NCBI GenBank assembly: GCA_902702965.1
Contig: CACRXP010000182.1
Coordinates: 878,543 to 942,542 of the forward strand
Source of the DNA: Spirometra erinaceieuropaei
Taxonomy: Eukaryota > Platyhelminthes > Cestoda > Diphyllobothriidea > Diphyllobothriidae
Length of the DNA: 64,000 nucleotides
Direction: 5' to 3'
The position numbers and the translations under genes were made by a program. Under the pieces are notes generated by a model. The model saw only the letters and a list, made by a program, of their open reading frames with translations, was not told the DNA's origin and searched no databases. Shown piece by piece: positions 20,016 through 63,587 of this stretch (within the stretch, counting starts at the first letter, position 1; every line of letters starts with the position of its first letter).

Positions 20016-20017
20016 TA

Positions 20018-20412
20018 TATACGCAGTATGCTATTACAGACAAAGATAAAGTGACTGGAATGGCCATTTCTGGCTTATTAGCCGTCGTCGGCCAATCATA
20101 CCCAACCCCGAAGTGTGGAACACCCGAGGCTCGAACTCGCGACCTGTTAGTTAGAAGTCAACGCCTGTAGACACTGTACCACCAGCCCGTTGCCCTGTCG
20201 GTTTTCGATCGGGAATATACAATGGTAGGGGACGCACAGCGATCGTTCTTACTGAAGTCACTCGTTCCGTTGTGCCTTATGGGCGAGTTCGAGCCTCGGG
20301 TGTTCCACACTTCGGGGTTGGGTATGACTGGCTGACGACGGCTAATAAGCAAGAAATGGCCATTCGAAGTCTCCCTTGTCTTTGTCGGTAATAACATGCC
20401 GCATATATATAA
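20018..20412. mobile_element. SINE/retrozyme-like fold-back S2
   Basis: Two copies of the S element joined head to head. The minus-strand arm (about 20,018-20,290) contains, reading leftwards, the CCTACCATTGTATATTCCC block, a tRNA-like A and B box region and the hammerhead-like block. The plus-strand arm (about 20,283-20,412) restarts at GAGTTCGAGCCTCGGG and repeats B box, hammerhead-like block and the TTTGTCGGTAATAACATG end. Both outer ends run into TATATA. It abuts transposon T1 directly on the left. The whole arrangement, including the right flank, recurs at 63,187-64,000. Confidence 0.75.
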
Positions 20413-24439: not shown

Positions 24440-26620
24440 GATTAATGAGGCTCTGAACTTAGAGTTCACCATTTTATTAACTAGAAATGCGAATTCCAAA
24501 AATGCATATGATTAACGGAGCTAATAATTTTAGCTGCAGTAACATGAACAGTTTATGTGGTTGCCATAAGGCAGGACGTACTAAGGAATCTTTCAAAGAA
24601 TTTTCTGAGCACATTCATTTTATTCCACGGAGTAACTAGGATGCAACATAAGGTTTATTTCATACTACTGACGAGCCTTTTCGGATGGCTCAGCTGCATA
24701 TAGCAGAGAATTTCTTTAAAGCTCAAAACTTCAGCATGCACAGCATAAACCCTGGTTGAGACACCTTGCTGGGATGGCGAAAGGTTCATCGCTTAGATGC
24801 TGCAATATAAAAATACATTATGAAGTACTTTCGAAACCCCGTGACTTTACTTGCTATGGTGTCGGGAGTGCGGTATAATACGTTGGATATATACATTCCA
24901 CACTACTCGTAGTACTGCTTTGTTAAATGGGCATTTCGTGGCTATTCCACAGTAGCCGATTGTCTTCGACTGAAATATTCATTGACATTTCGGTTCTGCC
25001 ACTAAAAAGTCATGTCTCGGTGACCTAACTCTTTTTCCTGCACTGAGTGATTTCTGAAATTATTCTCTTGATTATTCTTTGGAGTTCATATACCATAAAC
25101 CACATAGGGAACGCTGGGGGACCAGCTAATGAGCCTAGCCCCTCGCAGATGTTTCACGCAGAGGCAGAATATCGAAGAAAAACGTGTTTGGACTTTTAGT
25201 TAGTACCTATGTCGGGAGTACGATATAATACGTTTCATATTGTAAAATGCACATTAATAACTACTGCTCACCGATTTCAAACAGCGCTAGAAGACCGATA
25301 AAAAAAGGAGTTTTATTACTTAATTTGCAGTAAGCTTCCTCATTTTGTATTCTGGGGCAGGTTTTTCTAGAATTTTCGTGCCTATTTATATAACATATAT
25401 GTCAGCACCGCATGCGTTTTTTCATGAACATTTTGATAAGAACTGACGCGTTACTTAGGGTCACGCAATTGGCGCATTGAAGTCTTGTTACCAGGTTGTT
25501 GCATGTTGGGTCGTGAAGGCAATGACTCCTTCCCTTGACCTGAAAGTTATGAACAAAAGGCGCATGAACTGTCTGGATTCTTTTACAATGCTTGTGCGCA
25601 ACAGCTTCCCTTCAAGCTGGTATGTACACCAAGTCCTAACAAGTTATTGTCACGCTTGCCAGCCAGAGAACAACGGCGTTTGCTCAGTTTAGGCTTTAAA
25701 ATTTGAATATTGGTTCACACACACGCTCCAGCTTGCACAACACACTCTAACTCTGCATCCTGTAGATGCTGGCAATATTGCATTAGTAGATTAGTAAGTC
25801 AACCTCGTGAACGTCAGGAGTTTGCTTATGCTACAGTTAAATACGCGGACATCAATGAATTTACCTTTATCGCAAATCCTACTACTACCACTGTGTAAGT
25901 AGATGTCCTATGCTCTTGAGGACCCGTGCCTCCGTCCGTAATCCGTTAGGACGTCTCCATCCGTCTTGTTTGCGCCAAAATGTCGCTTCAGATAAATTGT
26001 ACTCTTATATTATAAAAGCCTTTGTTATTAACGCAGAATTTACAGCTGCCTTGCGTGCACCTCATTCCACAGAACGGCGTATTGTCGACTCGGCTGCAAC
26101 TGTCGACATTTTTTTGATTTTCTCAAAGTAACAATTATTTTTAGCCGGTTTGGGTTGGTGCATTTGGGTCAGTAGTCAATTGATTACCGATTGTTGATAA
26201 GGCCACGCAAATTGTAATGTCTTGCGAAACCCATAGTATGCACTTCAAGGTTTTTCTCCTAATAAGTAACAGGATGACAAAAAGGGTCTCAACCGAGAAA
26301 CGACATGCCACAATGATGGAGTAACCACCTTTTATGTTCCCAGCTAGTGAGTCTTGATGACTCGCCAACCAACCCCCACCCAAGTCGGTGACCACCTCGT
26401 TCACCTGGCCTGACCGCAGTAGAATGCTTTATGAAGTCGTGTTAAAACGTGCCTGTTGTTTCCAATCACACACCGGATGGATACATGAAGCCAGCTGGCA
26501 AAATGAGATTAAATACGTCTAAAAGACTAGTGTTAAAAATTCAAAATAGGGGACGCCTCAATGTTATAATGATTGTGGAGTAAAATTCGGCCTACAAATA
26601 CACTGATTGAAAAGGCGTTA
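24440..26620. other. Unit C noncoding stretch, no gene recognised
   Basis: Up to about 25,790 it follows units A and B. The interval 24,850-25,250 contains a short repeated phrase (TCGGGAGTNCGGTATAATACGTT type) at about 24,860 and 25,213 around sequence not seen in A or B, suggesting an inserted element. From 25,800 to 26,620 no similarity or gene is recognised. Confidence 0.4.
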
Positions 26621-28200: not shown

Positions 28201-29060
28201 CGTGTCGGGAGTGCATATTCTCTTAGCTCGGTCGGCGAGGCAGCAAATCAAGCTTCTTTTATGACTTAGCGGGACAACATTCTAGAAAATTATGTTTTTC
28301 CTTTTCATGCATTTTCTACGAAATACACTTTTACGAATTCTTCCATCAGGTGTTATTTAAAGCAAGACCTCCAAAATGGGGAAGCATTATTTGTTTCCTT
28401 CTTCCTAAATAGGATTTAACGCTTGGTGAACCTAATTCAAATTAAGCTTTTCATCTGCTACATCGTCAATATTAGAATTAGAATAGGTTTATTATATCGC
28501 CCCTTGGGCCCTCACAGTCTCCTTTGAACTCAGGAAAAGAACCTAAAACAACCTCATCCATTTCGACCACACACTGGCTTCATTTGTTTAGGATGTCTGT
28601 TTAGCCAATAGAGCGCGAATTGAGAGTTTGTTTTAAGTTAAAAAAAACCTGAGTTCCAAAGAAAAATAATCGCAAAGGTTTTAAAAGAGAACGCTATGTA
28701 CAATATAAAAATTGAAATGTGAAGTTTGGTAGTTTTTTGGGCACGAATAATATGTCCTTCATGGAAATTTAAGAACTTTAATATCGGCCTGACCTTGCAA
28801 GTATTTTCCAGTTGGGTAAATTTGGGGGTTTTCTAGTTGATGGTTGTCAATCTATCTGGCCAGCTATAAAGGGGCGGTCGCACAGTTCCTTCGTGTTTTT
28901 CAGGAGTTTTGCCATAGTCGTCTGGACTAAGAGCTGGAAAAGAAGAATATATATCAGGAGTAAGAAACATTCAATGGTAAGTATCAATCAAAGCTGTCAA
29001 AATAATATTGAACCATGTATCATATTATTCTTGTGGATGTGACATTATAGGAGTAGTGAT
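28200..29060. other. Intergenic, no gene recognised
   Basis: AT-rich with no convincing frame. The minus strand at about 28,800-28,940 reads KLLKNTKELCDRPFIAG after a pyrimidine-rich stretch and could be a PLE remnant linked to the RT piece that follows, but this is weak. Confidence 0.3.
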
Positions 29061-31876: not shown

Positions 31877-33112
31877 TTCAGTCAGTCAATCAGTCAGTAT
31901 ATTTGAGGGAAATAGGCTTACGCCTTTGAACTCCCTATTTGTACATAAAAAATCGATAAGCAAGCAAAAATGTGAAGAAATTACAGCATTAAGTGAATGC
32001 ATACATTGATTCACATATGTCACTAGTCACATGGTTAAAAAGTCGCATAGTCCGCTTGTTGCTGCAGCATATTTTTGTCAAGCCGACATTTAAATGTCTC
32101 TACAGATTGAGACATGACAGTCGTCTCGGGCAGGTTATTCCACGGTTCCACGACACGGTTGGAGAAGAAATATTTTCTCACATTCAGTCTACCCTGTGGC
32201 ACACGTAGCTTGAAGGGATGTCCCCGGAGGTGAGTTGTGGTGGCGAGTTGGAAAAAGCCATCGCACCGAAGGGCACAATCCAAGCCGCGCACGATACGGA
32301 AAGTTTGTATCATGTCTCCGCGCAACTGCCTATAACTCAGAGGATAGAGATTAAGGTTAGTTAAGCGGATCTCGTATGGCAGTGCACCTTGACCTCTTAC
32401 TAATTTTGTGGCTCGCCTCTGCACCCTTTCGAGCAGATCGTAATCCTGATGCGTCCACGGTCTCCAGGCCTGAATTGCATATTCGAGATGGGGCCTTATA
32501 AACGTGCCGAAGACTTTGGTGAAGCAGTCCTCATTGAAAACTACGAATGCCCGCTTGATGGCATATAGCATTGACGTTGCGGCCTTGGCCGCCTTACAGC
32601 ATTGTGTAGAAGGCTTTAGGCTGTCTGCGATCCAAACTCCGAGATCTTTCTGAGTTTCTGCTTCTCGGAGTGGCATTCCGTTCAGATGGTAATGCCGCGT
32701 ACTAGGGCTCTGATTTCCGAGGCGCATAATGGTGCATTTGTTCAAATTGAAGGACAAGAGCCATCTGCGGGACCACTCGTCCAACCGACAAAGATTTTCT
32801 TGGAAGTTGGTCTCATCGGCAGCATTCTGGATGACATTCCAGATTTTTATGTCATCCGCAAACATGGCACAATCACAGTCCAACCCATCTACGCAATCAT
32901 TGATGAACAAGAGAAAGAGAGTTGGTCCGAGCACCGAGCCTTGTGGGACCCCAGTCTCTATGAATGTGCACCTTGATTGCTGTTGTTCTACGCAGACAAT
33001 TTGGGAGCTGCCGACAAGGAAATTTTCGATCCATTTGAGAAGTTTGCCACCGAATGGATCGAAAATTTCCTTGTCGGCCGCTCCCAAATTGTCTGCGTAG
33101 AACAACAGCAGT
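31877..33112 (-). mobile_element. CR1-like non-LTR retrotransposon, 5'-truncated, RT C-terminal half
   Basis: On the minus strand a single open frame of about 330 codons runs from the fold-back near 33,000 to a stop at 32,035. It carries RT motif B (GVPQGSVLGPTLFLLFIND), motif C (AMFADDIKIW) and the thumb (LDEWSRRWLLSFNLNKCT), then QKDLGVWIADSLKPS, VFGTFIRPHLEYAIQAW and the C-terminal LRGHPFKLRV and YFFSNRVVEPWNNLP blocks. The 3' end at 31,877-31,905 is a CAGTCAGTCAAT-type tail. No stop or frameshift breaks the frame, so this is the best preserved copy in the window. It lacks the 5' half (endonuclease and RT fingers) and begins in a self-inverted segment described separately. Confidence 0.92.
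32978..33110. repeat. 58-bp inverted repeat at the truncated 5' end of the CR1 copy
   Basis: Arms 32,978-33,035 and 33,053-33,110 match at 57 of 58 positions around a 17-base spacer. Both arms encode the same RT segment (FLVGxSQIVCVEQQQ): the left arm in the minus-strand sense of the element, the right arm in the opposite sense. The segment was therefore copied twice in opposite directions at the point where the element is truncated. Confidence 0.92.
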
Positions 33113-47999: not shown

Positions 48000-50357
48000 C
48001 AAACACTTACGCAAGTCGTTCTTTTCCTGCGGGCTTCTCTGGCCCCAAGTGCCCCCTGAAGATTGTTTCGGCCAGCTTTAATTACACTTGTCGTAACCGA
48101 TAAGAACCCCCCCCCCCTCCATCTGTCTCATCGGAGCTGCGCCTCTTCCTGAACCTGCCTCGTCATAGTCTACGATTGGGCGTTTGGATGAGGCGTTGCG
48201 ATGACGAATACAATCTTACGGCACCTCTCCGTCTGAGCATCCTCTATGATGTTAAAGTTTAGTTAATCGCGCGCGGACTGGGTCTTGCGTGGACGGGCTA
48301 CTTTGCGTTGTCCACCACCACGTCCGGTCGTTTTGACATTATCTTGGCATCGGTCTCCGGTGGGTAGATGCTGCTTAACTCGGTTGTCACTGTAAACTAA
48401 CTCGCGCGCAAGTTACCGTCCTGTGCCAAGCATTCCGTGGACATCGTTGCATCCGATTGTCTGTCTGTCATGCACCGATACGATTCCCATATCTCATGAG
48501 TGAGACCTGCTGTCTTAACAAGCCCATCTTGCACTTCTTTTGAAGATGACAATGCGGGTTGCTAAAAAGACAAGATGTGACCACGTCGTCGTACTCGCCT
48601 GATATTCCAAACTCTCAAAGGTGACCCCCAATTAAGCTCTGTTTGCTGCCTCAGGGTCGATGACCTTGAATGACCGACTGATCGAAGATCCACATCGTCT
48701 ATTCCAAGATTGGCATGTCTGTTGATAATTAGACTGTTTCCTGCGCTTGAGCTGCGACATTGCAAATATCTCTCCCCCTTCCTATTGAGTTTTCTCAGAA
48801 AATGTAACAACACGACCGTCCAGTCGGCAGGCCTGATCGCGATAGTAGGTGTCATTCGTAGAAAAGCTATTTTGCTCATTCCGGCACATGCAAGTAGAAC
48901 CCTCTTGCAGATCCTAAAGTGTCGACTTGGTCTGCCAACTTTGGTGGATTTTGTTCCAAAATACCATATCTTCTCAATGCTGCACATTCATTTACTTCCG
49001 ATACTAATTACGATTATGTAAGCCGTTCTTGTGTGTGTGTGAGCATTGACTCCACAACGGGTTGGGCTGTAGATGTGTTGGACCAAGACAGGAGCCAGAC
49101 TGGCTCACAGCACGCGTTTAGCGGGCCGCGCCGAGTCTGTGTGAGAGGCCGTACATGGGCATATTGGCAGACATTGGACGCAGACCCTCACACCACGTCA
49201 GCTGCTGTGGACCAATCACATCACCCGCTGATTAGCAGGTTCGGGCACTATGCTTGGGCATTGCGGAAGGAAGAGTGAGCGAGGTCGACATTGGGGAATC
49301 CTTCCCTACAGCAAGTCAACGCATTCCCCACCGTGGCCTTGCACTGGACTCCAGGGAATGGGAGTCACGGTTTGGACACGGAAATAGGTGCCTTCTCTGG
49401 GATTTAGTGCAAAGCCACATGTAATACCGTATCGAACTGGTACGTAGGGCAAAGTTCACTTTGACGGGCAGAGCGGAACGCCTATACTCGCAGGTATTTT
49501 TCTATAAATATGGCCGAGGAGAATTTACTCCTGGTGAATGTGGGATGGGGTTAATGGGCAACTAAAAGAAGGAAGGGGATTCTATGCCGTCGCCGATTTT
49601 GCTGCTGACATACACGCTGCAGAAATCTATGCCAATTTCGGGGATGAAACGATAGGTGGTACGGGACTGCTTCAAGTTGGTCTCATGTTAGGCGTCTGGC
49701 AGATCCACCCGCAACACGACTGCATCGTTCCGGTTTAGTCTAACAGTATTTAGTAGGTATCGACTTCAGTGCAGCTGCGGGATGTGCAACTACGCTGGGA
49801 AACCGGCCGACGGTTGCAAGCGCGAATGCACGGGCATCAGTTGGTCGTGCGAAGGTTGGACCCAAAGTCGGAGGTAGCAAGCCGTGCCGCGCAAATTTGT
49901 CGTCATTGAGATTGTGAGCGGGGACGATGATCATACGGCAAGGTAGGTGCAAGAAGCCGGGATGTCCACCGACTGTTCTGTCAACCGCCACAGCAGCCTG
50001 CCCCCCCATATCTGACTTTACGAACATTCTTGACGGGGGACAGTCACGGCGCAGGGAAGTCGGGGCCGTCAACTATCGCCGCGAACATGGGTGCCGGCAG
50101 GTTTCTGTGCACGGCTTCTGCTGGTGCGATGGCCGAAAACTTGTTCTGTCGAATTTTAAGCCACCTCTTTTGTGAGGACCATTTAAAATTGAATGCCATC
50201 ACGTCATTATGCATTATTTAATGTCTGGCTCTGCCAAAAGGATTACAGAACTGTAGACCTCTGGAGGAGTTATGGGATGCATTTTAGTTTGAACTTTATC
50301 CAAATGCACAGATTAAAAAGAAGTCTCCAACTTCACTGCTTCTTCCATTATCCCGCT
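48000..50357. other. Intergenic between the CZIB-like and glutamate receptor genes (convergent)
   Basis: No gene recognised. A poly-C run occurs at about 48,109-48,117. Frames in 49,500-50,220 are chance-like in GC-rich sequence. The glutamate receptor 3' UTR must lie just left of 50,358; an ATTAAA-type signal is possible near 50,218 on the minus strand. Confidence 0.5.
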
Positions 50358-50619: not shown

Positions 50620-53600
50620 CTGTTTTGGTGGGCAAAAAGAGAGTGCAAAAAGATCGTCCGATGTTTGGTATGCAACACTGAATAGGCAGCAATTCTACTT
50701 ACTACGAGTCAAAGGCCCTCTTGTATTCCGTTCCTGCGACGATTGGAAATCCGTAGAAGGAGTGTGCGAATGTCTCCTTCATCCTCGATATCCCCCTGTT
50801 CACGGCATCCTCCATTACGCCCGCGGTGACTTCATCGTCAATGTAGACGAACTCCGGAGAGGCGAGAATTTTCTCCATGCCTTCCGCCTCGGAGACCGTT
50901 ATTGTTCGTTTCCAGAGTCGGCCATACGTACTTTCTGGACCGGCCTTCTAAGGCAGAGAGTAGGGAAACGTCTGAACACATCGCCGTAGCTGAAATCCTG
51001 GTAAACCGTGGCCACTACGGTGGTTAGGTTAATTGCTAATTAGAAGGTGAAAATGCCAACAGAAGGGCAATTTTGAGCTCAGGTTAGCAAACCTAAGAGA
51101 TCCGTGTCGATAATCTGAAATAAATGAAGCGCTTACCTGATCGAGGGAATTGTACTGCTGACGTTTCGACTAGCATGGGCGACGCTCCAGTATCAAAGAG
51201 TTTAGTGCAAAAATCGACCAGAATTTCGAATACACAGCCAAATTAGTTGATGTTGGGCTGATTTGTTTTTCCCTTCTTTCACTGCCTTGGACTACTGGCC
51301 GTTAATTGTAAGTGCTGGTGACCTCCTGTTTTGTGTGTCGTCACATAAATTGGGGTTAGTTGTGCTTGTGTCCCCCTTTTAGGCGAATTAGTCGACAGGC
51401 GGGGTTTGCTCGGTATTCGTAAGCTCCGTGTGACTGTCTTGTCCTGGTCATGGTGTATGCAGTGAAGTAGGACTTTAAAGGCCGCAAGAAGGTCTAGGTG
51501 CCCGTTGATGGAAATGACATCTGAGCACTAAGCTTCATGTGGGAGACGTTCTGTCCTTGAGGCACCCCGGCCTAAGACGGCTGCTCATTTAAAGTCAAAA
51601 CTGTAGCCAGTTCATCCGATGTGAGCCTCAAGCTGTGAGTTTGGGCCTAGTATCCTATTCTCCAGTTTGCTGTCATGCAGGCGGGTCTGCAATTTCCGTC
51701 CGCTTTCCCCAACGTAGTTGCAGTCTCCACCGTTACAATGTATTTAATAGACAATTCATTGGGTTTCAGTGGGTGGCAATATGTCTTTGGGTTGCATCAA
51801 AGGACGTCAGATTGTTGCCTGGTGTCCATGGACAGTGCCTTCCCTGGCGGGTTATAACAGTCGTGAAACCGCCTCGCAGCGTCTCGGAAACTCATTTAAT
51901 GTAATGAATAGCTCTCCAGAAATCGGGTTGCTCTTCCTGTTGCCGTTGTCTGTTCACTCGGCACTTGCTTTACCTGATAAAGTAGCTTGGGTATCCACTG
52001 GCCCGAAAGAGGGCATGGAGGTATTGTCGCTCAACTATTTTGTCGGCTGGTGTGCTGCAGTGTGTTTCAACTGTTTGGAAGAGAGTACGGACAGAGTTGT
52101 GTTTGTAAGAGTGCCGACCAATCCCTTCAAAACGTCAGCAATACAATTCCCTCGATCCTGTAAGGACTTCATTCTTATCAAGGACGATTTTATCCAGCTG
52201 CGCGGAAAGCTTACCGTTGAGGTGGTGAGTGGAATTGTGTGGCCAAATCAGAGCGACATCCATGTTGACCTTGGAGTTGGTCGTACAGCTAGCATGACTG
52301 TGGCTGGCGGGCTTTCAGAGTCCCACAGCACAGCCGGCGACCTTGACGGCCAAGCTTGTTGAAATGACAATAGTAAGCGGCTAGGGTCGGTTACCTACTG
52401 TTGACACATGTCGCCACCACGCGAAAATTCGCCAGATAGATCAAACGGACTTTTAAGTCCCCCACGGGACCCAGGTGGTTTTCCCCACAAACGTAAGACC
52501 GTATCATATATTAGTTCATCAGGGCCAGTGACAAGTAATCTAACGTGTATGTTCAACTCAGACTGACTTCTGCTCATTCGGATAGGGCTTTTAATGAGTA
52601 TGAGAAAGTAAATGTTCATGAGAGCAAACTGTACCTCCATTATACTTGCAGCATAGGAGCCACGAGCTACGAGGGGGATGATAGCTGTGTCATCAGCCAG
52701 CTCCTCAAGCGTCTCGAAGGGCGGAATGACTTCGCTGCTGCTCAAGAAAGCCACAAGCTCTGCCTGGTAGGCGGCCTGTAGAAGGACAACGTACATCCAC
52801 CAGCTGGCCATGAGGATTCTCGACGAATAAGCAAGTGGGTAGAATTCCTGTGCTGCCGAATAGGCGTGGCCAGAAGGGGGATTTAGAAAATTAGCATGGA
52901 AACACGTTTTTTTCTATTACAAAGTCACTTTCCAAAAACATCTCACCCTGCATCACGAAGGCCTCAAATGTATTCCACAGATTGTCCCAAAGACTAATTT
53001 CGTCTGAGACAGCGCCCAACAGACGTAGGTTCCAAGCACTGAATGGGCTACAACGGCTTAGACAGCAAATCAGCCCTGAGGTCAGGAAGATGGAGGCGAT
53101 TATAAGAGTCCAGGTCTGCCAGTGAAAGGGTGTTGCCATGCGAACTAGGTTGGAGCTTTCTGCCGGGGTTCTGTAAAAAACTGCCAGATGGGCACTTTGA
53201 AAAGGCTCCATAAACTGGATCGCCTTCGCCCGCTCAGCCGAGATTGTGATTGGACCTACAGCGAACTCTACCTCCTGCAGTAAGGCGGTAAAGATAAGTG
53301 GGAGGATATCAGTCAGCACTGAGACTGGAAAAGAGAACAAGCACATTCCATAACCTGATTGGTGAGTGTTTTCCTAGCATATGTAAGTATACATATACAT
53401 GCATGTATTTAAGTATATATAATATATAATACATAGGCAGAATGATATTACCGACAAAGACAAGGGAGACTGGAATGGCCATTTCTGGCTTATTAGCCGT
53501 CGTCAGCCAGCCATACCCAAGCCCGAAGTGTGGAACACCCAAGCCTCGAACTCGTTCCGTATGAACGATCGGTGAGCGCCCCCTACCACTGTATATTCCC

Positions 53601-56600
53601 GATCGAAAACCGACTAGGCAACGGGCTCGTGGCCCGGTGGGTAGAGGCGTGGACTTCTAAACCAACAGGTCGCGAGTTCGAGGCTCGGGTGTTCCACACT
53701 TCGGGCTCGCATATGGCTGGCTGACGACGGCTAATAAGCCAGAAATGGCCATTCCAGTCCCCCTTGTCTTTGTCGGTAATATCATTCTGCCTATATATCC
53801 TGCGCCGCTGTGCGGCTGCTGGTTGGGCTCGAGAGAGAGCCCATAAGGCACAACGGAACGAGTGAGTTCCGTATGAACGATCGGTGAGCGCCCCCTACTA
53901 TCATAATATATAATACAATATAAGAATATAAGCGAAGGTGCGCGTCCCCATATATAAGAAGAAAATGTGATTTCTGGAATCCTAGTTTCACCGTTCTGGA
54001 GTTTCCGAAACATACAAGCTTCTGTCCTCAGAAGTGGGTGTGGTATCGCCTTTCACAGTATTCATAAGTGGCGATGGTCATGTTAAAAAAGGTTTACCTA
54101 TGCAGCCAGAGAGGCAGGATGGAAGGGCTGTGGACTGGCATCGCCCACCAGCCGGAGTCAACAAATCGACACCTAGTTATAGGGCTGAAGGCCCCCCTCC
54201 CACGAGGTAGAACCACAATCGTCATCTACCGATCTAGGTGTCACTTCCGCGAAGTCAGCAGCATTGGAGAGACCGGTAAACGACTACCGACCCCTGCCGG
54301 AGAACACATGAAAACATTCTGGAGGATGAACCAGTTATTGCTGATGACGGAACACTGCACCGACTATGGACATATTTTTGTCTTCCGGAATGCCGAAATT
54401 TCTAGTAGTGGGAATGAGGGCGTGGCTAGGCTAACAGTCGAGGTCTGGCACATGGGGACAACCTCCGTCAGCCGTTATGTGGCACTTTCTGCGGCCTACC
54501 AAACCCTCCAGATTTAGCTCAGTGAACAAAAGAGCAAAAGTGAAGCTAAGTCAATCATAAATCCAAACATGAACAAGTCCAGGGCGGACACTCACGTCGC
54601 AGCATAAAAACCCTGATCCGACGAAGGCGCAGTTTCCCCTACCGACGTACCATCCACTACACCGACCGATAAAAATGAAGACGGTTATGGCATCGTAAAC
54701 AAAATTGTCAGCCTAAGACCTCAGTTAAGATCCGCCACGGTCTCCGTGTGTATGCGGATGATGACCACCAAAGTTAATCCATTACCCTCTCATCAGGTGG
54801 CAAGATGCTCGAGGACTCCCTTTCCACCCCTTCCTCCCTGTCGCACTGGGTGCGCAGGTAAGCCCCTTTTGGAATGACCATCATTGCGATAACACACTCT
54901 TCTTCGAGAACGGAAGCTTGTCTGCACCCGAAACGTCAGAGCAATAAACTTATTATTCGCAAAATCGTCATTCCTTCTCATACACACATATATATATAGT
55001 GGCAGAGGGCGCTCACCGATATATATATATATATGGCAAAGGTATTATGCTGCCGTCTCCATATAGGTACCAGCTAAAAGCCCAGACTGCTGTTTCGACG
55101 ATATTCTGCTGCTGCCCGGCACAGCTGCGAGGTGTTCGGCTCGGCAGTGTGCCCCCCAGCGTTCTCTATGCGGCTTCTGGCATATAAACTCCAAAGAATA
55201 ATCAAGCAGGTATAGCCAGCTAATGAGTCAGAAATGGCCATAGTACGGATCTTGACCGACCCCATTCTTTTCGTCTGCCGGTTGAGTTTCTGGCGAAAAA
55301 AACCTTTTGCCAAATGACACTTTCTCATATGGTACATAGAAAGTTCGCCCAGGTACTCCCAGGCCGGACAAAAGCATTTTAGGAAGTTTAATTCGAAGTA
55401 GTGAGATAATTCCGAGACTAAGTAACTTTTATTACCAATGCATATTGACCCAACTGTGAAAAACTCGGCGCTTCGGTGGGATTCGAACCCACGCATTAAG
55501 GGGAAGACTTTACTACAGCCAGCGCTCTAACCACTTAAGCTACGAGGCCTCGCTGAACGACGCGTGTATAATCACATTTGGTTCAAGTAATCCGCCCAAC
55601 TTACCACAACGTCTATAATCAACCAAATCTGATACAGTAATTTAACTGCCCAAGCAGGATTTCCTAAGTAATTCACCTAGAATCCACCACATGACTACCA
55701 GGCACACGTAAATTTTTTAGTGCTAGTCCCCAACTTTTCGCCGGACTTATGGGTCCTGTGCAAAAAACTATTTAACCCTGCCTAACAAGCAATTCTGCGG
55801 CTGACCGGAGCCCGCCTCAATTCGCGTCAATTGCATCTTGTTATCCCGTCAGCACTAGCTATGCCCATACGAGCTGACACAGATTGCCCAGTTTGACCAA
55901 AGTAGACGGTATCACAAATATCACACAGGATATTGTGGACAATGCCTTTTCTGCTGAGGTGAATAATCCTTTCCGTAGGATGTAAAAGCCGTATGCGTGG
56001 GGTATTTTTCGGTTGGTGTGCTACTTTTATCCTATGTCCGTCAACTGTCCTTCGACAAACTGCGATGCATTTTCCATGTATGGAATAGTTCATTAGGTAA
56101 TTATTTTGGTGTCTGGGCTGCCGTAATTTTCAAAAAATCCTTCTAAATGGACCCTTGATGCTTTACCCGGTCTTTACGATGAGCGAAGAATGTGAATGTC
56201 CAAACCTAAGGTTTTTTTCCACAAAAAGAAATCATCAATGTCAAAAATTAATGGACACAGAATAAGGCATCCAGTCCCATATTACGGACAGCAGATTTCG
56301 TGTGACTTTGCTCAGACAAATAATTAACTTTTAGGCTGCTAGCAATTATTTTTTCTTAAACAGGACTATTGTTACTAGTCTGCCACAACCAGTACCTGCT
56401 ACATTGTACGCCATCCAATTCTAACAAAATTTTAGTGTTATAGTCATTCGAACAAAAGTACAGCACTCCTGGTGTCCCAAACCTAAGGTTGGGTATGATT
56501 GGCTGATGACGGCTAGTAAGTCAGAAGTGTCTTTTCCAGTTTCCCTTACCTTTCGCCATACAAATGCACAACGCGATGAGCAGGTTCCATAACCAGATTT

Positions 56601-59600
56601 GCGAACTTCCCTTCTTACGACAAACATACTCTTTTTCATAAAAAATATACTGAGGGTTTCTGTGTTATTTCGGATCAAAAACGTTTTCTATATTGGAATT
56701 TTCATCTTTCTTGGGCTTGAAATGGCAGATTATTATTTCTAGAATCGCTGCACAAAAATTGATTTTTGTGCGTTGTTTCTGTGATTTTTGCTTGAGGGTA
56801 CAATGGCATCCAAAATCAGTTAAAGGTAACATCTGCTGAAGTGTTATGTCCTTTTGAATAGAAGTTACATCGAAATCTGCTCACAATATTAGCCTCTATG
56901 AGGTATTTTCATGTTATGATTGACGCTTTTCACTGGCATAGCCTCTGTTCAGTGGCACAGTGAGACATACGAGCCCATGCACCACGAGTTTCTGCGAACG
57001 CTGCATGTCAAGGCTACTTGCGTTAATTAAGTAGGCAATATATCTAGGTTTCACCTCCGCGAACTTTCGGAATTCCTACGAGGAATGTGATATAACTACA
57101 ATATGGTACAACTTACCCCCCGGACAACGAGGCCTATAAGGCCAGTCCAAGAACCATTTGGCAGCTTACGGCCATATTCGCCGTCCGCGGGCGTCACGAG
57201 CTCAAAACTAGGTGAGAGCGGAAGGACATACATTCAGTCACATTTAAGTGCTCCTGCGAACGAATCTTTTCAATTTTTTATTCGATCGCATGGAAGGTTG
57301 ATTAAAAAAGTTAACATAAGTTTGCATTATGCCAACGTCTCGAATCAGCCACGCATGAGCTTGATCAGGAAGGAACTATTTGTGGTGGGCAGTCAAGAAT
57401 GTGCTAACCTATTGGACTGTGTATATGTTTGGGAGCGAAGCTGCTGTTAGGAGTAGTAATCGTAATAGTATTATTATTATTATTATTAGTAGTAGTAGTA
57501 GAAGCAGTAGTAGTGGTAGTTGTAATATTGGTGGTGCCAGTGGTGGTGTCGCCAGCGATGACGAATAGGCCTTTTAGTATTATCAGCAGGAGGAGGAAGA
57601 AGAAGAACAGAAGAAGATGACAATAGATTTCTAGTTAAAGTCTATAGGAGCAGAAACTTGTTTCTTTTCCATTACAAGATGTGCAGTCCAGTTGCAGAAA
57701 GCATTGTTTTATCGCCGTCGACAAAAAATCATAAACTAATTATGGAAAGCTCGGAGAAGTGACCGTACCCTCAAGGGTGCTCAATGGAATAAATGTATGT
57801 ATTAATTAATTATTACTGAATAAAACTTAAAGTTTGCATTCATATCTACAAGACAGCATTAAGGAAAGATTCTTTTCCATATAGTTCCGGATAACAGGTT
57901 TCTTGTATGCGAATTCTGGGGAATTAGACAAGACGGTTAACTCGCAACCTCAGATTATGGGAGCACATTCTTGGCTTTTGAATAAATTGTCTACGGGAAA
58001 TTGGATACATGTCAACGAGCACAACAAACTTCAGCGTTTTTCTTCAAGAACAAACATCATTGAAGCCCGCAATACGAAACCAAAACGAATAGTTTCTCCA
58101 GTTTAGCATTTGTGATGCAATATGTTAATAAAATTTTCCCATCGCCCATATATGTGCATATATTTATATGCGGAATGTTGTTACCGACAAAGACAAGGGA
58201 GACTGGAATGGCCATTTCTGGCTTATTAGCCGTCATTAGCCAGTCATGCCCAACCCTGAGGTGTGGAACACCTGGGACTCGAACTTGCGACCAGTTAGGT
58301 ACGACTGGCTGATGACATCTAATAAGCCAGAAATGGCCATTCCAGTCTCCCTTGTCTTTGTAGGTAATACCATACTGCCTATATCATGCGCCGCTGTGCG
58401 GATGCTGGTCGGGCTCTAGAGACAGCCCGTAAGGCACAAGAGAACGAGTGAGTTCCGCAAAAACGGTCGGTGAGGCCCTCTAACTTTATATATGTATATA
58501 CATTTGAAGGCATATGCGTACTTTGTGGAAGGGGGAGAACTTCATTGAGCAAATTTTCGACGTTGGTTCCTCGTATCGTCGTCAGACTTGAATAAATGTG
58601 CAAAAATCAATTAACACTTCAAACGTGCTGAGAAATCAGTATTCGTTTGGTGCTTCAGCCTGTAGGCAGCCGCTGTGTGCGTTAGTCTGGAGCAATTAGC
58701 TGCGCGGCATCCGACTAGTTTTTCCTATTGATGCATTACTCATCGGAGTGCATGGCCTTAAGAAACTCGGCATTTTTTAGTACGTAAACTGCGTCAATGC
58801 GAGGTTTGTTACCGCAGTTGCTTTACTTGAATTCATGGACCTTTGTTTAGAAACAAAGTTTTCGTTCGACCACCATTATTATCAACAACTAAAAGGCGCC
58901 CCTATGAGATCACCTATATCTGGCTTTCTTGCCGAGGTGACAATGAAGAAACGGAAACTAGTAGCTCTTCCATTAGTTAACCCTTAAATGTGGGTGCAAT
59001 ATGTAGACGACATATTTGTTTTTACTAAAAAAGCTCCACTGGATGTGTTCCACAACACCATCAACTCAACCAATTCGGTGAATTACATTTATGCTGGAAA
59101 TAGAAGTTGACAATAAACTCCTATTTCTAGCTGTTCTCGTACAGCGGAAGACTGACGAACAATACTCACGTCCGTTTACTGCGAAGAAACATACGCTAAA
59201 ATAATTTTACACTATAAGAGCAACCGCCCTATGTCCTACAAGCGGAGTACTGACAAAATTCTGCCACGTAGAGCAAAACAATTTGCTCTGATGATAAAAT
59301 CTGCTATATTAAGCTAGACTACTTGTTTGAATTGGTTTCCCAGAACGGTTACCCTAAATGTTTCGTATGTCGATGCATGAGACAACAAGAGTTAAAAGTA
59401 AAGGAACTAGACAGTTCTAATCAAACGCCCAAAGTAAATTCCTCGCGAATCCTTCCTTTCATAAGGAATTTGTCTTAACTTGCTGAAAGACGCTTGAAGA
59501 AACACCAAATAAAATTGTCACACAAGTCGACGACTACATTACACACTCACCTTGTAAACTCTAAGGATAGGGTTGACTATCTCGATAAAAGGAAGTCGTC

Positions 59601-62536
59601 CATAAGATCCCATGAGATGCCTGACACCGTATACTGCGGCCAAACGGGAAAATTTGTCTCTACACGTATCCACAAACACCAACTGGCAGTTAAGAGGCAA
59701 AGGCCACCGGTCTCAAATGGCCACGCACACGCTTAATACTGGGCACACCGCATGGGATAAAACTCTTATCGTCGGAGTTTGCCCCTCTAAAAACGGCCGG
59801 GAGTTTATTGAAGCTATGCACTCCGGCGAGTCATGCATCAATAGGCACATCGAGTTAGATGCCACGTACGAAAATCTCAGTGGAAAGTGCAACAGACAAA
59901 AGCCAATCGATACAGACTGACGCACGCGGCGGCCGCTTACTGGCTGAAGCACCAAAGGAGTATTGATCTGATAAGAAGTAGAAGCGATCGCTGGAACAAG
60001 ATCTTTATTTGCCAGACGTTTCAGATTCTCACTTGGACCCGTCATCAGATACAGTGACAGAAACGCGTGACCCGTGCACAGGAAGTTGCAGCATTTATAG
60101 CAGGCAGTCGCTATGCTACCGCATACCTATGGTAACCGCTCTTCCTTCATCAATTGTTGCCCGTTAGTGCGCTACTGGTTTGACTGCCGGCATGAAAGTT
60201 GCTAATTGCTGAAATCTCATCACCCTTTCTAGGTGCTGGCGTGATGATTGCGCGGCAACCTGGCTCACCGGCTGCGTGCTCCCCGGATGGCAAATTACTT
60301 TGGCCAGCTTGTGCCTCAGCAGAGAATATGGAGTAGGGCTGACGTTGCACTTGTTTGTAGACTGAGATCCCGTGAACCATGACTCAAGCAACACGCCACT
60401 TGCCATTATCTGTCGCTGCAGATCGGGTATTTATTCCGACAGGAATGGGCGCACACCGATCTATTGGCTTCCCGAAGCAAACAAGCTTCGTTTGGGCGAT
60501 AGGGGTCACGAACAGGCAACCGCCTACCAGGTCGAAGTCGGCCACGCCACGATAGCAGAGGAGGGAGACGACAGAGTCCGGGAGGGTAGATTGATACAGC
60601 ACTGGCAGAGTCAAGAAGACGCAATCTCGGGCACTGTTTCGGGCCCGTAACCCTGACCATCAGCGGGGACCAGTAACAGGCACACCTGACGCAGTTGGTC
60701 CACCACTGTGGTCTACTAGATGGGTCATATGCACTTCATCGAACCGAAGTTCATCAATGCCTCGTCACCTGTCATTCTCTGTCGCCGCAGATCGGGTATG
60801 TGTTACATCAGGAAAGGACGCACACCCATCTATTAGCTTTCCGAAGCAAACGAGACTCTTATGGGTGACAAGGGTCACGAACAGGCAACCAACTATATAC
60901 GTACATATGCCAACCAACTGATATGAATTTATGCGCTTTCCCTCTCATTTGCATCGTCTTTAAGGCAGTTGAACCGAGGAATATCTGCCGCTTCTGGCCT
61001 CTGGTGCTTAAACTATCCTATTAGGTGGCAGTCGACGATAACCCTATACAGGCAGTCTCCAAAATCCCCTTTGGCACAATTAAATAGGTCCTCTGCTCTC
61101 GGCGAAATTGGCTTGGCGTAAACAACTGTTAGCATGATGTGTGTAGGTACGTAATTGCCATACCGATTATCAGTTCGCACGCAAACAGTTAGCCAGTACC
61201 AACGAGTCAAAGTCACGCCCATTCATGCAGCTTCAACAGTTACAATCTAACCATCCTAAATTCACAAGACCTGGTTCAGAATGCCACGGTAGGTAGTTCA
61301 CGATCCGCCGTGCTCTAAGAGGGTTATCCCGTGCAACAGAGCTGGATATCGGTATACCTCATTGACTGGAAGCTAGTTTGTGCAACCAATTTATACAAAT
61401 CGGCAGACAATGAAGCCCTGATGACTTGTTAGATTTTCCCCGTCAGATTTTTTCCGTCAATTCCCCTCGTATTTGCACACTCTCAGTGAATCAGTGGTGG
61501 AGCTCACGGCCATGGAAACAGACTGACAATATTGTGCGATACCAATGATCTGTTCTCAGATTCTGCCTGATGCGGCCTGATCGCCGTTATTCTCGTTCAT
61601 GTCCATTTTATGAGGCTGAGGAAGCATTTTACGCGACTGATGACTCGGTGTTGGCAAGAGGGTTCCAATTAGTTCGGAGTAGATAAATGTAATCCTTATG
61701 TGTGAACATGGTAACTCACCCGAACTGGAATTGCTCCTGAAGCAGTTGAAGTAAATCGATTTGGAAACCAGAGGCATTTTGCAGAAATCCATTCTCATCC
61801 AGACTGCCGCCTTCAACAAATCCTCTCGCCTTTAAATAGGAAAACAGGAGATGCGTACTATTAATTAGTACAGCAAGTTGCGATGGGTACAGCATGATTA
61901 GTCCTGCCTTTTAGACAATCCAACCCCGGGATTTGAAGACTACTCATTAGATACGTGGCACTGAGGTTGCTTTTCTCAAAAGGCTGGTTTCTTACTTATC
62001 ATACACGTGAAGCGGCTTCCTCATGGTGCCGATGTCATTGACCGATTACACGCTTACCATGACCTTGGTGATAAGATCAACCTCCGGACCGTAGGCAACC
62101 CGACTGACTTCTGTACAAATAGGACGTACTTCACTCATCTTGGCCATTTAGCACCGACTGTTCATGAACCTATTCGACAGCCCAATCTTCTTTAAGATTA
62201 CTCTAACCGTTCCTTCATTCTTTTCAATTGTCTTCCGAGATAATTGGGCAACATGATACCAGAAAAGAAATGTTTCTCCGCGTTTTTAATAGACAGACAG
62301 CCTTGTACCTGCAAACAGCCGATTCGAAGTTTTTCGCCGAAGAAGCTGTAAAAGGCGTTTGGAAAGAGGCCGCTGATGTCAGATTTAGGTGCCTGGAAGG
62401 CGGCAAAATCGGTCATCTCTAAGCTGCCATCCGCTTGAAGTTGTGCTGTCCTGTAGAACGTGATTGGCTCATGCAGTCGTCGGGTTCTGGAAGCGAACAT
62501 CCAGAGACTGTTGAGAAGGCCAGTCTCGTTGTACCA
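50358..62536 (-). CDS. Ionotropic glutamate receptor, divergent (six exons; 5' end beyond window)
   Basis: Exons in order: 62,536-62,309, 61,829-61,720, 53,324-52,947, 52,852-52,635, 50,947-50,703, 50,619-50,358. They encode a ligand-gated cation channel subunit: end of the amino-terminal domain, S1 ([32 protein letters not shown]), TM1, pore and TM3 ([18 protein letters not shown]), S2 (ending [18 protein letters not shown]) and TM4 ([19 protein letters not shown]) with a short tail. Pro, Thr and Arg of the PxTIxxxR ligand site are kept; the S2 acidic ligand residue is Asp (FVYIDD). The SYTANLAAF gate motif is altered to AYQAELVAF, and the Q/R/N site is Met by alignment. Phases agree at all checked junctions, except that a short S1 exon is missing in the 8.4-kb intron. 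Probably an active but divergent clade. Confidence 0.93.
50703..50947 (-). CDS. Glutamate receptor exon: S2
   Basis: Acceptor CTACTCTCTGCCTTAG, donor TA|GTAAGT. It encodes [36 protein letters not shown] with the acidic ligand-contact position, and [19 protein letters not shown]. Confidence 0.93.
51450..52370 (-). mobile_element. Decayed PLE in glutamate receptor intron
   Basis: On the minus strand, broken frames read [36 protein letters not shown] and, near 51,740-51,670, [19 protein letters not shown], the start of a GIY-YIG domain (YVGESGRxLxTR). SINGHLDL follows near 51,530. Several stops. A long plus-strand frame over the same interval (51,769-52,362) is its antisense shadow. Confidence 0.7.
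52635..52852 (-). CDS. Glutamate receptor exon: pore exit, TM3 and start of S2
   Basis: Acceptor TATTCGGCAG, donor GAG|GTACAG. The split codon makes Ala, giving [16 protein letters not shown]3 then follows with the altered gate motif [11 protein letters not shown] and the S2 start [13 protein letters not shown] and [12 protein letters not shown]. The preceding intron is 94 bp. Confidence 0.93.
52947..53324 (-). CDS. Glutamate receptor exon: end of S1, TM1 and pore helix
   Basis: Acceptor TTCTCTTTTCCAG, donor CAGG|GTGAGA. It encodes [19 protein letters not shown] with the ligand-site Arg, [17 protein letters not shown]1 ([19 protein letters not shown]) and the pore helix up to [11 protein letters not shown]. 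An internal alternative acceptor (CTTACTGCAG, before GAGGTAGAG) has a longer pyrimidine tract and could be used instead, depending on the missing exon's phase. Confidence 0.93.
53434..53900. mobile_element. SINE/retrozyme-like fold-back S3 with a complete unit
   Basis: The minus-strand arm (53,434-53,553) holds a hammerhead-like block (53,468-53,512) and B-box region. The plus-strand part (53,554-53,900) is a full unit. It begins GTTCCGTATGAACGATCGG at 53,554, then has TATATTCCCGATCGAAAACC, a tRNA-like A box near 53,630 (TGGCCCGGTGGGTAGAGG), a B-box near 53,668 (GAGTTCGAGGCTC), the hammerhead-like block (53,715-53,759), TTTGTCGGTAATATCATT and a CGCCGCTGTGCGGCTGCTGG block. The start sequence is then repeated at 53,866. 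The period is 312 bp. It lies in the intron of the glutamate receptor gene. Confidence 0.78.
53715..53759 (+). ncRNA. Hammerhead-like self-cleaving motif in element S3
   Basis: Stem I 53,715-53,720 (GGCTGG) pairs with 53,754-53,759 (CCAGTC; GACTGG in other copies pairs perfectly). The core CTGACGA is at 53,721-53,727, stem II is GGCT-AATA-AGCC, GAAA is at 53,742-53,745, and the palindromic ATGGCCAT forms a two-base-pair stem III with a GGCC loop or an intermolecular stem. The cleavage strand is AUU before stem I. The base pair closing stem II is C against A here; the minus arm at 63,230 has T against A, which pairs. Short stem III variants are known to act as dimers. Confidence 0.5.
54068..54520 (+). 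mobile_element. PLE GIY-YIG domain fragment (family 2)
   Basis: A 149-codon frame to a stop at 54,515-54,517. Its second half reads [18 protein letters not shown], then [34 protein letters not shown] and [15 protein letters not shown], the full order of a PLE GIY-YIG nuclease: the G-E-TGKRL motif with the expected Arg region, the EH motif, the GH-F motif, the glutamate block and a terminal N/R-H-L block. The usual catalytic Arg in 'TR' is Pro (LPTP), so it is probably inactive. No RT is seen upstream. Confidence 0.75.
54521..55430. other. Intronic, no exon recognised; short TA repeat and S-element scrap
   Basis: A (TA)n tract lies at 55,017-55,034. Just left of it GCAGAGGGCGCTCACCGAT matches the end of the S element on the minus strand, and the block 55,205-55,240 (AGCCAGCTAATGAGTCAGAAATGGCC, given here only in part as GTCAGAAATGGCC) looks like a broken hammerhead-like motif. 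The interval is a likely rearranged S copy. Confidence 0.4.
55430..55560 (-). mobile_element. tRNA-derived SINE-like fragment (family 2), copy 2
   Basis: The minus strand has an A-box (TAGCTTAAGTGGTTAGAGC) that can form a D-arm and a perfect B-box T-arm (GTGGGTTCGAATCCCAC). The region between them is about eight bases too long and cannot form an anticodon stem, and the acceptor ends do not pair well. The downstream GCGCCGAGTTTTTCACAG and GGTCAATATG sequence is shared with 34,815-34,860. This is a tRNA-like SINE head, not a working tRNA gene. Confidence 0.7.
55790..56100 (-). mobile_element. PLE fragment (linker and start of GIY-YIG)
   Basis: The minus-strand frame 56,093-55,827 reads [19 protein letters not shown], then [17 protein letters not shown] and [15 protein letters not shown]. 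This is the PLE linker followed by the Cys pair and the (V)Y-GQTG start of the GIY-YIG nuclease. Truncated on both sides. Confidence 0.78.
56100..58155. other. Intronic, no exon recognised; S-element scrap and trinucleotide tract
   Basis: At 56,485-56,555 GGTTGGGTATGATTGG, CTGATGACGGC, AGTCAGAAG and TTCCAGTTTCCC are a decayed plus-strand hammerhead-like block of the S element. At 57,460-57,610 lie ATT, AGT, GGT and AGG/AAG trinucleotide runs. Nothing else recognised. Confidence 0.45.
58160..58485. mobile_element. SINE/retrozyme-like fold-back S4
   Basis: The minus arm (58,160-58,295) runs from GTTACCGACAAAGACAAGGG through the hammerhead-like block (here CTAATGA instead of CTGACGA, so broken) to the B-box. 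The plus arm (58,296-58,485) has an intact CTGATGA core at 58,309-58,315 within 58,303-58,347, then TTTGTAGGTAATACCAT, the CGCCGCTGTGCGGATGCTGG block and the GGTCGGTGAGGCCCTCTAAC end. It is flanked by TA-rich sequence on both sides. Confidence 0.75.
58490..58620 (-). mobile_element. PLE 3' tail only, with hammerhead-like motif
   Basis: The minus strand reads AAGTCTGACGACGATACGAG, then GGAACCAACGTCGAAAATTT and a CTCAATGAAGTTCTCCCCCTT block. This corresponds to the 3' tail at 320-400. No coding part is attached, and it abuts S4 directly. Confidence 0.6.
58850..59935 (+). mobile_element. PLE copy: RT motifs B-C, linker and GIY-YIG, decayed
   Basis: Frames read [19 protein letters not shown] (motif B) and [16 protein letters not shown], the RT catalytic box [24 protein letters not shown] and [14 protein letters not shown] follow in one frame near 59,620-59,735, and [12 protein letters not shown] and [20 protein letters not shown] in another to a stop at 59,918. 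At least one stop lies between motifs B and C, plus many frameshifts. Same family as the copies at 1 and 62,820. It lies in the large glutamate receptor intron. Confidence 0.85.
60010..60420 (-). mobile_element. PLE fragment (family 2), end of GIY-YIG and 3' UTR
   Basis: The minus-strand frame 60,406-60,164 reads [19 protein letters not shown], then [13 protein letters not shown], the terminal block of a PLE nuclease ([19 protein letters not shown] type). The 3' UTR continues to about 60,010. The 5' side is cut at about 60,420, where an unrelated direct repeat begins. Confidence 0.7.
60402..60888. repeat. Direct repeat pair 60,402-60,525 and 60,772-60,888
   Basis: Both copies run CTGTCGC, GCAGATCGGGTAT, ACAGGAA, GGGCGCACACCGATCTATT-type sequence, CCCGAAGCAAAC and GGGTCACGAACAGGCAACC in the same order with about one mismatch in ten. 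The spacing of 370 bp is not filled by a third copy. Origin unknown. Confidence 0.75.
60890..61719. other. Intron of the glutamate receptor; possible cryptic exon near 61,140-61,190
   Basis: On the minus strand, about 61,191-61,146, a frame reads [13 protein letters not shown]. It resembles the S1 segment 'LVPDGKYGA' that is missing between the neighbouring receptor exons and lies in the right place. No AG acceptor in frame is found close upstream, so it is not called as an exon. Confidence 0.3.
61720..61829 (-). CDS. Glutamate receptor exon: S1, GFxIDLL helix
   Basis: Acceptor TTCCTATTTAAAG, donor GG|GTGAGT, ending in phase 2. It encodes [17 protein letters not shown] and [17 protein letters not shown], the S1 helix region following the first strand of the ligand-binding domain. 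Confidence 0.9.
62309..62536 (-). CDS. Glutamate receptor exon: end of amino-terminal domain and start of S1
   Basis: Acceptor CTACTTTTAG, donor CAG|GTACAA, exactly 76 codons. It reads [18 protein letters not shown], then [16 protein letters not shown], and ends [12 protein letters not shown], the 'LRV' strand that opens the ligand-binding domain. Upstream exons should lie to the right of the window or are unrecognised. Confidence 0.88.
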
Positions 62537-62819
62537 CTAAAAGTAGCCGAAACGTAGTCTGTTTATGTGACTACCAGTAGAGCGTCATCAAATTAAGATG
62601 ACTTTTTTGAAATATGTAAACTTCGCCCCATCAGCGGGAGTTTTGCAGATGAGAGGAGCATTTGTATTTTCACACCTTATACTGTCTACGTGATTTTAAA
62701 CAGAATGGCATTTTAGAGTTGCGAAGATTCCCATTGAAAAATTCAAAAGGCAATTTGGCAAGCGTACGTCTGTTTCGGTAAGTTCTCTTCAAGTCTGTAC
62801 AATTTTATGGCTATATATA

Positions 62820-63185
62820 TTGTTGGCGCCTGCCCTACAAGGAGAGGCCGCGAATTCCTGGAAGCAATGCACTCAGATGAGGCATGCATCAATCGGCATA
62901 TCGTTCTAGATGCTACGTGCAAATTCCTCAAGGACAAATGGAAGCGAGCGCAGCCAATGCTGAGGGGATGACGAAATATCATTGACGCGCATTGTCGCAG
63001 ACTTCGGCCAACCACGGAATCACTTGTTCGGTGCGGTTTAAATAGTTAACTGTTTTTGTACATAACTCAGTAGTCTGACGACGAGCTGGGGAACCAATTT
63101 CGAAGATTTACTAATAAAGCTTTTACTTTTCCCAAAGAACCTATCATCTTCAATTTATATCTCTTGGGATGCCCGCCTTCCAGCA
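62820..63185 (+). mobile_element. PLE 3' end, 5'-truncated, with hammerhead-like tail
   Basis: Starts abruptly inside the GIY-YIG domain (GREFLEAMHSDEACINRHIV, then CKFLKDKWKRAQPM) and stops at about 62,968. The tail matches 221-420 closely, including CTGACGA at 63,075-63,081 and the (T)CCCAAAGAA block, and ends at TATATA next to fold-back S5. It inserted upstream of the receptor exon at 62,536. Confidence 0.85.
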
Positions 63186-63186
63186 C

Positions 63187-63587
63187 TTATATATGCAGTA
63201 TGCTATTACAGAGAAAGACAAGGAGAATGGGATGGCCATTTCTGGCTTATTAGCCATCGTCAGTCAGTCATACCCAACCCCGAAGTGTGCAACACCCGCA
63301 CTCGCGACCTGTTATTTAGAAGTCCACGCCTGTAGACACTGGACCACCAGCCCGTTGCCCTGTCGATTTTCGATCGGGAATATACAATGGTAGGGGACGC
63401 ACAGCGATCGTTCTTACGGAAGTCACTCGTTCCGTTGTGCCTTATGGGCGAGTTCGAGCCTCGGGTGTTCCACACTTCGGAGTTGGTTATGACTGGCTGA
63501 CGACGGCTAATACGCCAGGAATGGCCATCCCAGTCTCCCATATCTTTGTCTGTAATAACATGCTGCATATATATATATATATATAAT
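63187..63587. mobile_element. SINE/retrozyme-like fold-back S5
   Basis: Same architecture as S2. The minus arm is 63,187 to about 63,450 and the plus arm to 63,587, both ends in TATATA. The minus arm's hammerhead-like block has CTGACGATGGC, so stem II closes with a T-A pair, and an AUC cleavage triplet. The plus arm (63,492-63,536) has CTGACGA and AUC but GGAA in place of GAAA. An AT microsatellite lies at 63,567-63,584. Confidence 0.78.

Follow-up and report, generated by a model that had tools for sequence, protein, structure and literature searches.

Introduction

Hammerheads of Penelope-like elements (PLEs) are said to have been the subject of work by Cervera in 2014 and PLE-associated hammerhead variants of work by Luense in 2017, and the Schistosoma repeat SMalpha was reportedly treated by Ferbeyre in 1998. 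PLEs with minimal type I hammerheads in their pseudo-LTRs are described in portions of PMC7761336, PMC3846280 and PMC11167929. In the sections of these papers available, Penelope inserts are closed by an inverted pLTR, mostly lie head-to-head and have duplications of 8-10 bp and an optional tail (PMC3846280), and the PLE protein, which prefers AT-rich DNA, cleaves both strands and extends them, with internal starts at two sites (PMC11167929). The same sections report that the PLE hammerhead cuts only with the protein present and is dispensable for insertion in vitro, the insertion of an Anolis PLE being unaffected by hammerhead mutants (PMC11167929). Excerpts of two further papers propose PLEs as carriers of retrozymes (PMC7229834, PMC7761336), the metazoan non-LTR forms of which are non-autonomous elements with tandem units of about 300 nt and canonical hammerheads of type I layout, several shown to cut (PMC7229834). 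In Schistosoma, the excerpted account of SMalpha and W36.2 describes SINE-like elements, SMalpha being a 335-bp repeat with an active type I hammerhead (PMC8490949).

Here we describe a repeat of the tapeworm Spirometra erinaceieuropaei, S, which carries a hammerhead-like block and came to light in a stretch of 64,000 nt that was analysed as a whole and is called the window below (contig CACRXP010000182.1, positions 878,543 to 942,542). A LINE reverse transcriptase encoded in the window matches a protein of Spirometra erinaceieuropaei with 94% identity over 88% of the query, which places the host in Spirometra or close to it. Like the PLEs in the accounts cited, S lies in head-to-head pieces and partial tandems at AT-rich targets, with short target-site duplications, a choice of two 3' ends and a minimal stem III; unlike them, it measures 312 nt, is non-coding by size and without the PLE ORF, has Pol III-like boxes and a C·A pair closing stem II, and about 100-110 nt separate its two 3' ends, compared with 30-40 in PLEs. 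It shares with retrozymes, as characterized in the excerpt, a non-autonomous nature, the unit size, the type I layout and PLEs as proposed movers, whereas copies of S are dispersed and frequently paired in inverted orientation, and S is known from DNA sequence. With SMalpha it has a flatworm host and a SINE-like form in common, and it is likened to that repeat by layout. Among the papers listed in searches of the open-licence literature, none reported such an element.

Results and discussion

The block occupies positions 53715-53759 (+) of the window. Read directly, it comprises a 6-bp stem I with one G·U pair (GGCTGG at 53715-53720 and CCAGTC at 53754-53759), the full core CTGACGA (C3-A9, 53721-53727), a C at position 10.1 (53728) opposite an A at 11.1 (53741), a 4-bp stem II with an AATA loop (GGCT/AGCC, 53729-53740), GAAA (G12-A15.1, 53742-53745), the palindrome ATGGCCAT as stem III (53745-53752, with TGGCCA between A15.1 and U16.1) and a T at H17 (53753), 3' of which the layout would predict cleavage, at unit position 167 (u167). 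The original prediction had claimed a hammerhead-like fold here, recurring at six places, and the layout is present as it had described. A long pattern of the block, with up to three mismatches, matched eight times in the window against 0.00 expected from shuffles; a short pattern matched nine times against 0.06, which confirms the recurrence and puts the block at nine places, including 20060-20091 (-), 58208-58239 (-) and 56503-56522 (+) beyond the first six. An old copy at 7132-7200 (-) was detected by profile search, and in the copy at 20,326 one extra base weakens stem I. By analytic estimate, chance would produce a match to a strict descriptor that ignores the 10.1-11.1 pair 2.7e-7 times in a 312-nt unit and 5.5e-5 times in a window; in simulated sequence, a looser descriptor matched 0.8 times in every 344 kb, both strands counted.

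A consensus of 108 rows, six of which come from doubly taken places, carries the core C3 U4 G5 A6 N G8 A9 / G12 A13 A14 / A15.1-U16.1 / H17, each base in 90-98%. Among the rows lettered on both sides (88-94 rows), 90-98% form any given one of the six stem I pairs, and 87-91% of rows form those of stem II. The four commonest minor bases in the block (26%, 25%, 15% and 13% of 108 rows) keep the pairing or fall on N7. A C against A at the close of stem II had been singled out as the weak point of the fold, rightly: among 97 rows the 10.1-11.1 pair is C·A in 80, U-A in 6, A·A in 6, C-G in 3, C·C in 1 and U·C in 1, with G-C in none, and the copy at 63232 (-) has T-A. Natural copies with the variants include L018:1203-1278 for U-A and L028:2648-2721 for C-G. 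PMC2837043 lists G10.1-C11.1 among the 'conserved positions' and has compensatory changes at this pair. After the consensus had been built, L003 (the window place) and L009 (overlapping L008) were excluded from row and cluster counts, which brought the 108 rows to 102.

The block lies within a single S insertion (53434-53902) that consists of an inverted arm followed by a direct copy slightly longer than one unit, with arms of 126 nt that are 95% complementary. The insertion is bounded by an exact, AT-rich 15-bp target-site duplication, ATAATATATAATACA, at 53419-53433 and 53903-53917. Its minus segment (53434-53554; about u87-212; 95% identity to the unit by BLAST) has the unit 3' end as its outer end, and the BLAST match extends to 53429, inside the duplication; the plus segment (53554-53902), delimited by self-comparison and BLAST to the unit, goes from u280 to u312 after one full turn, about 345 nt. 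The unit length of 312 nt follows from a 33-nt direct repeat that recurs at this spacing, copy 1 (53554-53586 (+)) being the end of the preceding unit and 100% identical to copy 2 (53866-53898 (+)). Positions 53587-53898 served as the reference unit, whose 100% identity holds by construction. BLAST to the unit located further inverted pairs at 20016-20410, 58162-58491 and 63188-63574, an old copy at 7012-7333 (-) with 72% identity and an old fragment at 56494-56553 (+), u126-185, with 78%. Flank comparison showed that the first and last of these pairs have their right flank in common; judged by these sequences they probably derive from one insertion, and the 25 minus-then-plus clusters counted below therefore include one doublet. 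The head-to-head inverted pairs with their target-site duplications had been overlooked in the original prediction, as had a second hammerhead-bearing repeat family, R, treated below. Next to the focal copy, two frames at 52398-53373 (-) match ligand-gated ion channel (glutamate receptor-like) domains in Pfam.

Segments of S were collected with a tripled 312-nt unit as BLAST query, whose matches cross the unit boundary. They are frequently partial tandems, 19 of the 56 young segments (>=90% identity) exceeding one unit and the longest reaching 793 nt, and the commonest form is the head-to-head inverted pair. Among 60 complete clusters, the order minus-then-plus ('-+') was seen 25 times and '+-' never, with 15 single '+', 15 single '-' and 5 other orders; joints between adjacent segments were '-+' in 31 cases, '+-' in 3, '++' in 2 and '--' in 1. 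Since the pairs are minus then plus, the outer ends on both sides are 3' ends, and in the 56 young segments these concentrate at u201-212 (29) and u308-10 (23), with 4 elsewhere. The 5' ends, at the inner joints, are scattered along the unit. Exact flank repeats of >=9 nt that are not A/T-only were sought in the 30 nt around each S end, beyond the exact boundary alone, and found in 13 of 32 young clusters, compared with 3.2% of re-paired flanks; in two of these clusters the repeat consists almost wholly of TA. Nine of these clusters are '-+', an order shown by 18 of the 32, and with such repeats around 9 of 18 young '-+' pairs we regard the '-+' pair as one insertion. Single copies running from u18/20 to u2/4 (297 nt) also have duplications (L026, L031). 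None of the 56 5' ends lies at the predicted cleavage site (u165-170), nor any in u145-184, and six junctions fall at u185-189; this gap may be explained by pauses of the reverse transcriptase before the block or by microhomology. As cleaved linear monomers would give starts at 168 and none was seen, we infer that the templates were uncut or circular. By eye, S has no poly(A) tail.

The original prediction placed the fold in a tRNA-boxed repeat. Box-like motifs are present in the focal copy, TGGCCCGGTGG at 53630-53640 (+) and GAGTTCGAGGC at 53674-53684 (+), read from the sequence against what we take to be the A-box and B-box consensus. The tRNA label itself found no support in the Rfam tRNA model (RF00005): tried on a single young copy (L026), the model left its head unmatched even when given only 111 nt. 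An old S copy in L029 gave a mascRNA-menRNA match at E 0.11 on the other strand. Elsewhere in the window, a tRNA-like sequence at 55468-55549 (-) scores 32.5 bits, above the cut-off of Rfam.

In 264 kb made up of the window and 20 stretches of 10 kb (L033-L052), none picked by similarity, a profile of the block matched 36 times; two of these matches coincide in part with one on the other strand. This is about one match per 8 kb and, extrapolated to the 759-Mb genome, gives an estimated number of S copies of order 100,000. The young copies over-represent the focal subfamily because L003-L032 are the 30 loci, out of 40 scored among 1459 candidates, that best matched the focal copy. In the sections available, SINEs make up 4% of one assembly of S. 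erinaceieuropaei (PMC4265353) and 1.09% of another, which has 10.41% 'LINE/Penelope' (PMC8166898). Protein searches found S-derived peptides, three in Schistocephalus solidus and one in Dibothriocephalus latus, and a search with a short region returned a single candidate, the query itself; an exact 26-nt S pattern had 0 matches in the bacterial/archaeal and viral collections. One of the Schistocephalus solidus peptides opens a predicted Rho-GAP protein (P0124, about residues 1-28), as an exonised repeat or an annotation artefact.

PLE remains are plentiful around S. The GIY-YIG domain has at least 34 matches over the cut-off in the genome (150 scored of 4416 candidates), and the loci examined hold 54 PLE pieces, from which, and not from full-length copies, PLEs are known here. 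The window has 13 Penelope-like RT/endonuclease pieces at nine places (2-190, 4825-5468, 28210-28473, 49758-50003, 51468-52110, 54128-54526, 55863-56030, 58859-59887 and 62798-62938), some <600 bp from S copies; that at 54128-54526 (+), which lies 230 bp from the focal S, is a fragment of a GIY-YIG endonuclease in which Pfam itself found nothing and which shares 54% identity with P0121, a Sparganum proliferum protein, in its PLE part. A 352-aa frame in L008 combines RT, with Pfam RVT_1 below the cut-off, and a motif that we take, from its presumed consensus, to be GIY-YIG-like; on four other PLE frames Pfam gave no match. Five S-PLE neighbours lie within 100 nt of each other: three have S minus followed by PLE plus (L029, L010 and L019, with gaps of 20, 57 and 95), and the other two have both parts minus (L018) or both plus (L037). 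P0121 shows the order S minus, PLE plus once more. Such joints could be the trace of two-sided priming with two different RNAs, which is suggestive only: PLE pieces near S are expected from chance alone at so high a PLE density, and the hybrid joints are few. In L019, a lone minus S copy has on its left a flank with a 12-nt match about 1.3 kb downstream, beyond a PLE fragment, and the whole (L019:1501-2808) is a possible S-PLE hybrid insertion.

The second family, R, has an orthodox type I hammerhead layout with G10.1-C11.1, a palindromic stem III such as CACGTG and a long stem II. With the Rfam hammerhead model RF00163 it passes the cut-off in L001, at 42.3 bits, and in L002, at 34.5 bits, and among the matches listed a descriptor or BLAST also located it at L005, L049 and further loci; decayed copies lie in the window at 25038-25240 (+) and 55023-55204 (-). 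Its pairs are minus-then-plus in L001, L002 and L005 and plus-then-minus in L010. R thus resembles S in the minimal palindromic stem III and the minus-then-plus pairs, and differs in the canonical closing pair, the long stem II and the RF00163 matches in L001 and L002. Downstream of the block, similarity between S and R was not significant, 0.22 of shuffles being as good.

A search with the Rfam hammerhead model had been suggested as a check on S. RF00163 left S unmatched at E<=10 in the window, in the S of seven loci and in a 141-nt stretch, a miss that weighs little because the model matched R in L001 only, one of three control loci, and is insensitive here (no match to R in L005 or L049). 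A second check, a consensus with a search for compensatory changes, came out divided: the consensus keeps the core and the stems, but covariation exceeds shuffles only slightly. Counted in 78 of 88 prepared copies, representing 69 distinct rows, cells changed on both sides numbered 9 against 4.2 in shuffles (reached by 9/500) and pairs with a change on both sides 6 against 3.2 (23/500); the covariation score was reached by 52/500 shuffles, and 90.6% of cells were paired against 89.8% (4/500). RNAalifold predicted no pairs. The kinship with type I hammerheads and SMalpha that had been put forward is therefore upheld in part, by a flatworm retroelement of ~312-nt units with a type-I-like layout, a minimal palindromic stem III and Pol III-like boxes, and is weakened by the lack of an Rfam hammerhead or tRNA match in the searches run, the C·A that replaces the conserved G10.1-C11.1 and the weak covariation.

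Conservation of the block was compared with that of the head and tail of the unit in old copies, a region being counted only at >=50% identity. In copies picked by their head, identity was 85.9% in the block and 74.8% in the head (n=9, in stretches not chosen by similarity), or 86.2 and 76.7% over all loci (n=17). With CpG sites left out the values were 86.5 and 76.8% (n=18), and the block stood above the head in 15/18 copies, or in 17/18 without CG/TG/CA, in a comparison that dropped copies with <60% identity in the block and so favoured the block. In tail-picked copies, by contrast, block identity was 68.5% (n=14) or 71.1% (n=34), below the tail itself, perhaps because many lack the block. 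Mean coverage by 34 old whole-unit matches was 29.0 at u145-156, 7.5-19.0 before u120 and 9.1-13.0 after u204. In PMC2837043, selection on the satellite hammerheads of Dolichopoda is argued on the same ground of conservation. Reading back from the peptides of Schistocephalus (3) and Dibothriocephalus (1), in which the first R of SRRQ covers position 10.1, the tryptophan that fixes A11.1 is present throughout; codons implying a changed G8 occur in two of the four peptides, and one of these two, P0123, implies U-A at 10.1-11.1.

Folded as a monomer, S has a minimum structure that differs from a hammerhead. For the dimer of the 55-nt consensus, the predicted fold has the topology of a double hammerhead, apart from a pair between A14 and U17. 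The energy of the dimer is not exceptional, as 11, 38 and 139 of 300 shuffles were as low for three S versions and 134 for R, and a check for a free core and GAA returned 'False' in all four. The core of S most likely descends from a hammerhead. It is possible, if on balance doubtful, that the core still cuts, as judged from its sequence. We think it unlikely, though not negligibly so, that S represents a new kind of hammerhead, in which a protonated or protein-held C·A pair closes stem II, a PLE-bound dimer yields circles and two-sided copying follows, the '-+' pair being its fossil.

The explanation that we consider probable is that S is a SINE-like, non-autonomous element mobilized by PLEs, with two-sided priming and a conserved, hammerhead-derived core in a block that it needs. 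S has the head-to-head pieces with target-site duplications of PLE-type insertions and two alternative 3' ends, albeit more widely spaced than the published 30-40 bp, and the genome has the PLE enzyme; we infer from this that Penelope-like reverse transcriptase/GIY-YIG endonucleases of the host would move S, with about 312 nt per unit. The enzyme would cut both strands at a mostly AT-rich site, and on each cut strand reverse transcription would begin internally on S RNA, at u~205-212 or ~312/1-10. Copying would proceed along a tandem or circular template over as many as 2.5 unit lengths, and the two cDNAs would meet head-to-head, gap repair leaving the target-site duplication. The first of these start sites lies 45 nt downstream of the cleavage site predicted for the block, which itself would derive from a hammerhead carried by PLE-type elements and be retained because master copies need it, as a weak, possibly protein-assisted dimeric ribozyme or as an RNA structure bound by the enzyme. 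The 15 '+' and 15 '-' clusters, which are single-ended, speak against this explanation. S may offer an estimated hundred thousand genomic records of start sites, two-sided priming and S/PLE template switching, and the one deviant pair in a conserved hammerhead-like core a sharp test of the purpose of PLE-associated hammerheads.

A serious possibility, which we hold more tentatively, overlaps with this explanation as to the mover and takes the block as a binding or start signal of the PLE reverse transcriptase that is not a ribozyme, or is one no more, its hammerhead look being a relic or an accident of a hairpin and a palindrome. It would cover the C·A pair, conservation of the block without clear compensatory changes and the lack of 5' ends at the predicted cleavage site, and the Anolis mutants described in the excerpt of PMC11167929 agree with it. 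Against it stand the joint occurrence of every core base, U16.1 and H17 with a stem I of 6 bp and a palindrome as stem III, for which strict chance is about 3e-7 per unit, and the four commonest minor bases, which keep the pairing or fall on N7. That the whole pattern is a chance find in a long window is very improbable: the first search was made by eye and one conserved pair is missing, but with the strict layout so rarely expected in a window of this length, and with the head of the repeat less well conserved than the block, pure chance was rejected.

Two further readings concern the element as a whole. The A/B-box-like motifs, the single 297-nt copies with duplications and the abundance of LINEs stated in the accessible part of PMC8166898 would suit an ordinary tRNA-derived SINE moved by a LINE (RTE-BovB or CR1), with pairs that are chance neighbours or products of twin priming. 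This is improbable: '-+' joints far outnumber '+-' joints, duplications enclose whole pairs, 3' ends fall at two internal positions and units run in tandem, all of which fits PLEs, and neither a poly(A) tail, by eye, nor a match to the tRNA model, in the copy tested, was found. A foldback or MITE-type DNA transposon with the block within its inverted repeats is hardly credible: inverted arms of 126 nt with 95% complementarity and flanking duplications recall one, yet arm length varies among copies, the inner joints are scattered and single-ended copies carry duplications. With variable arms and tandem units, a DNA-transposon or MITE identity was rejected.

Apart from S, a LINE RT frame in the window contains a near-perfect hairpin of 111 nt (32989-33099), which matches mir-3938 on both strands below the cut-off.
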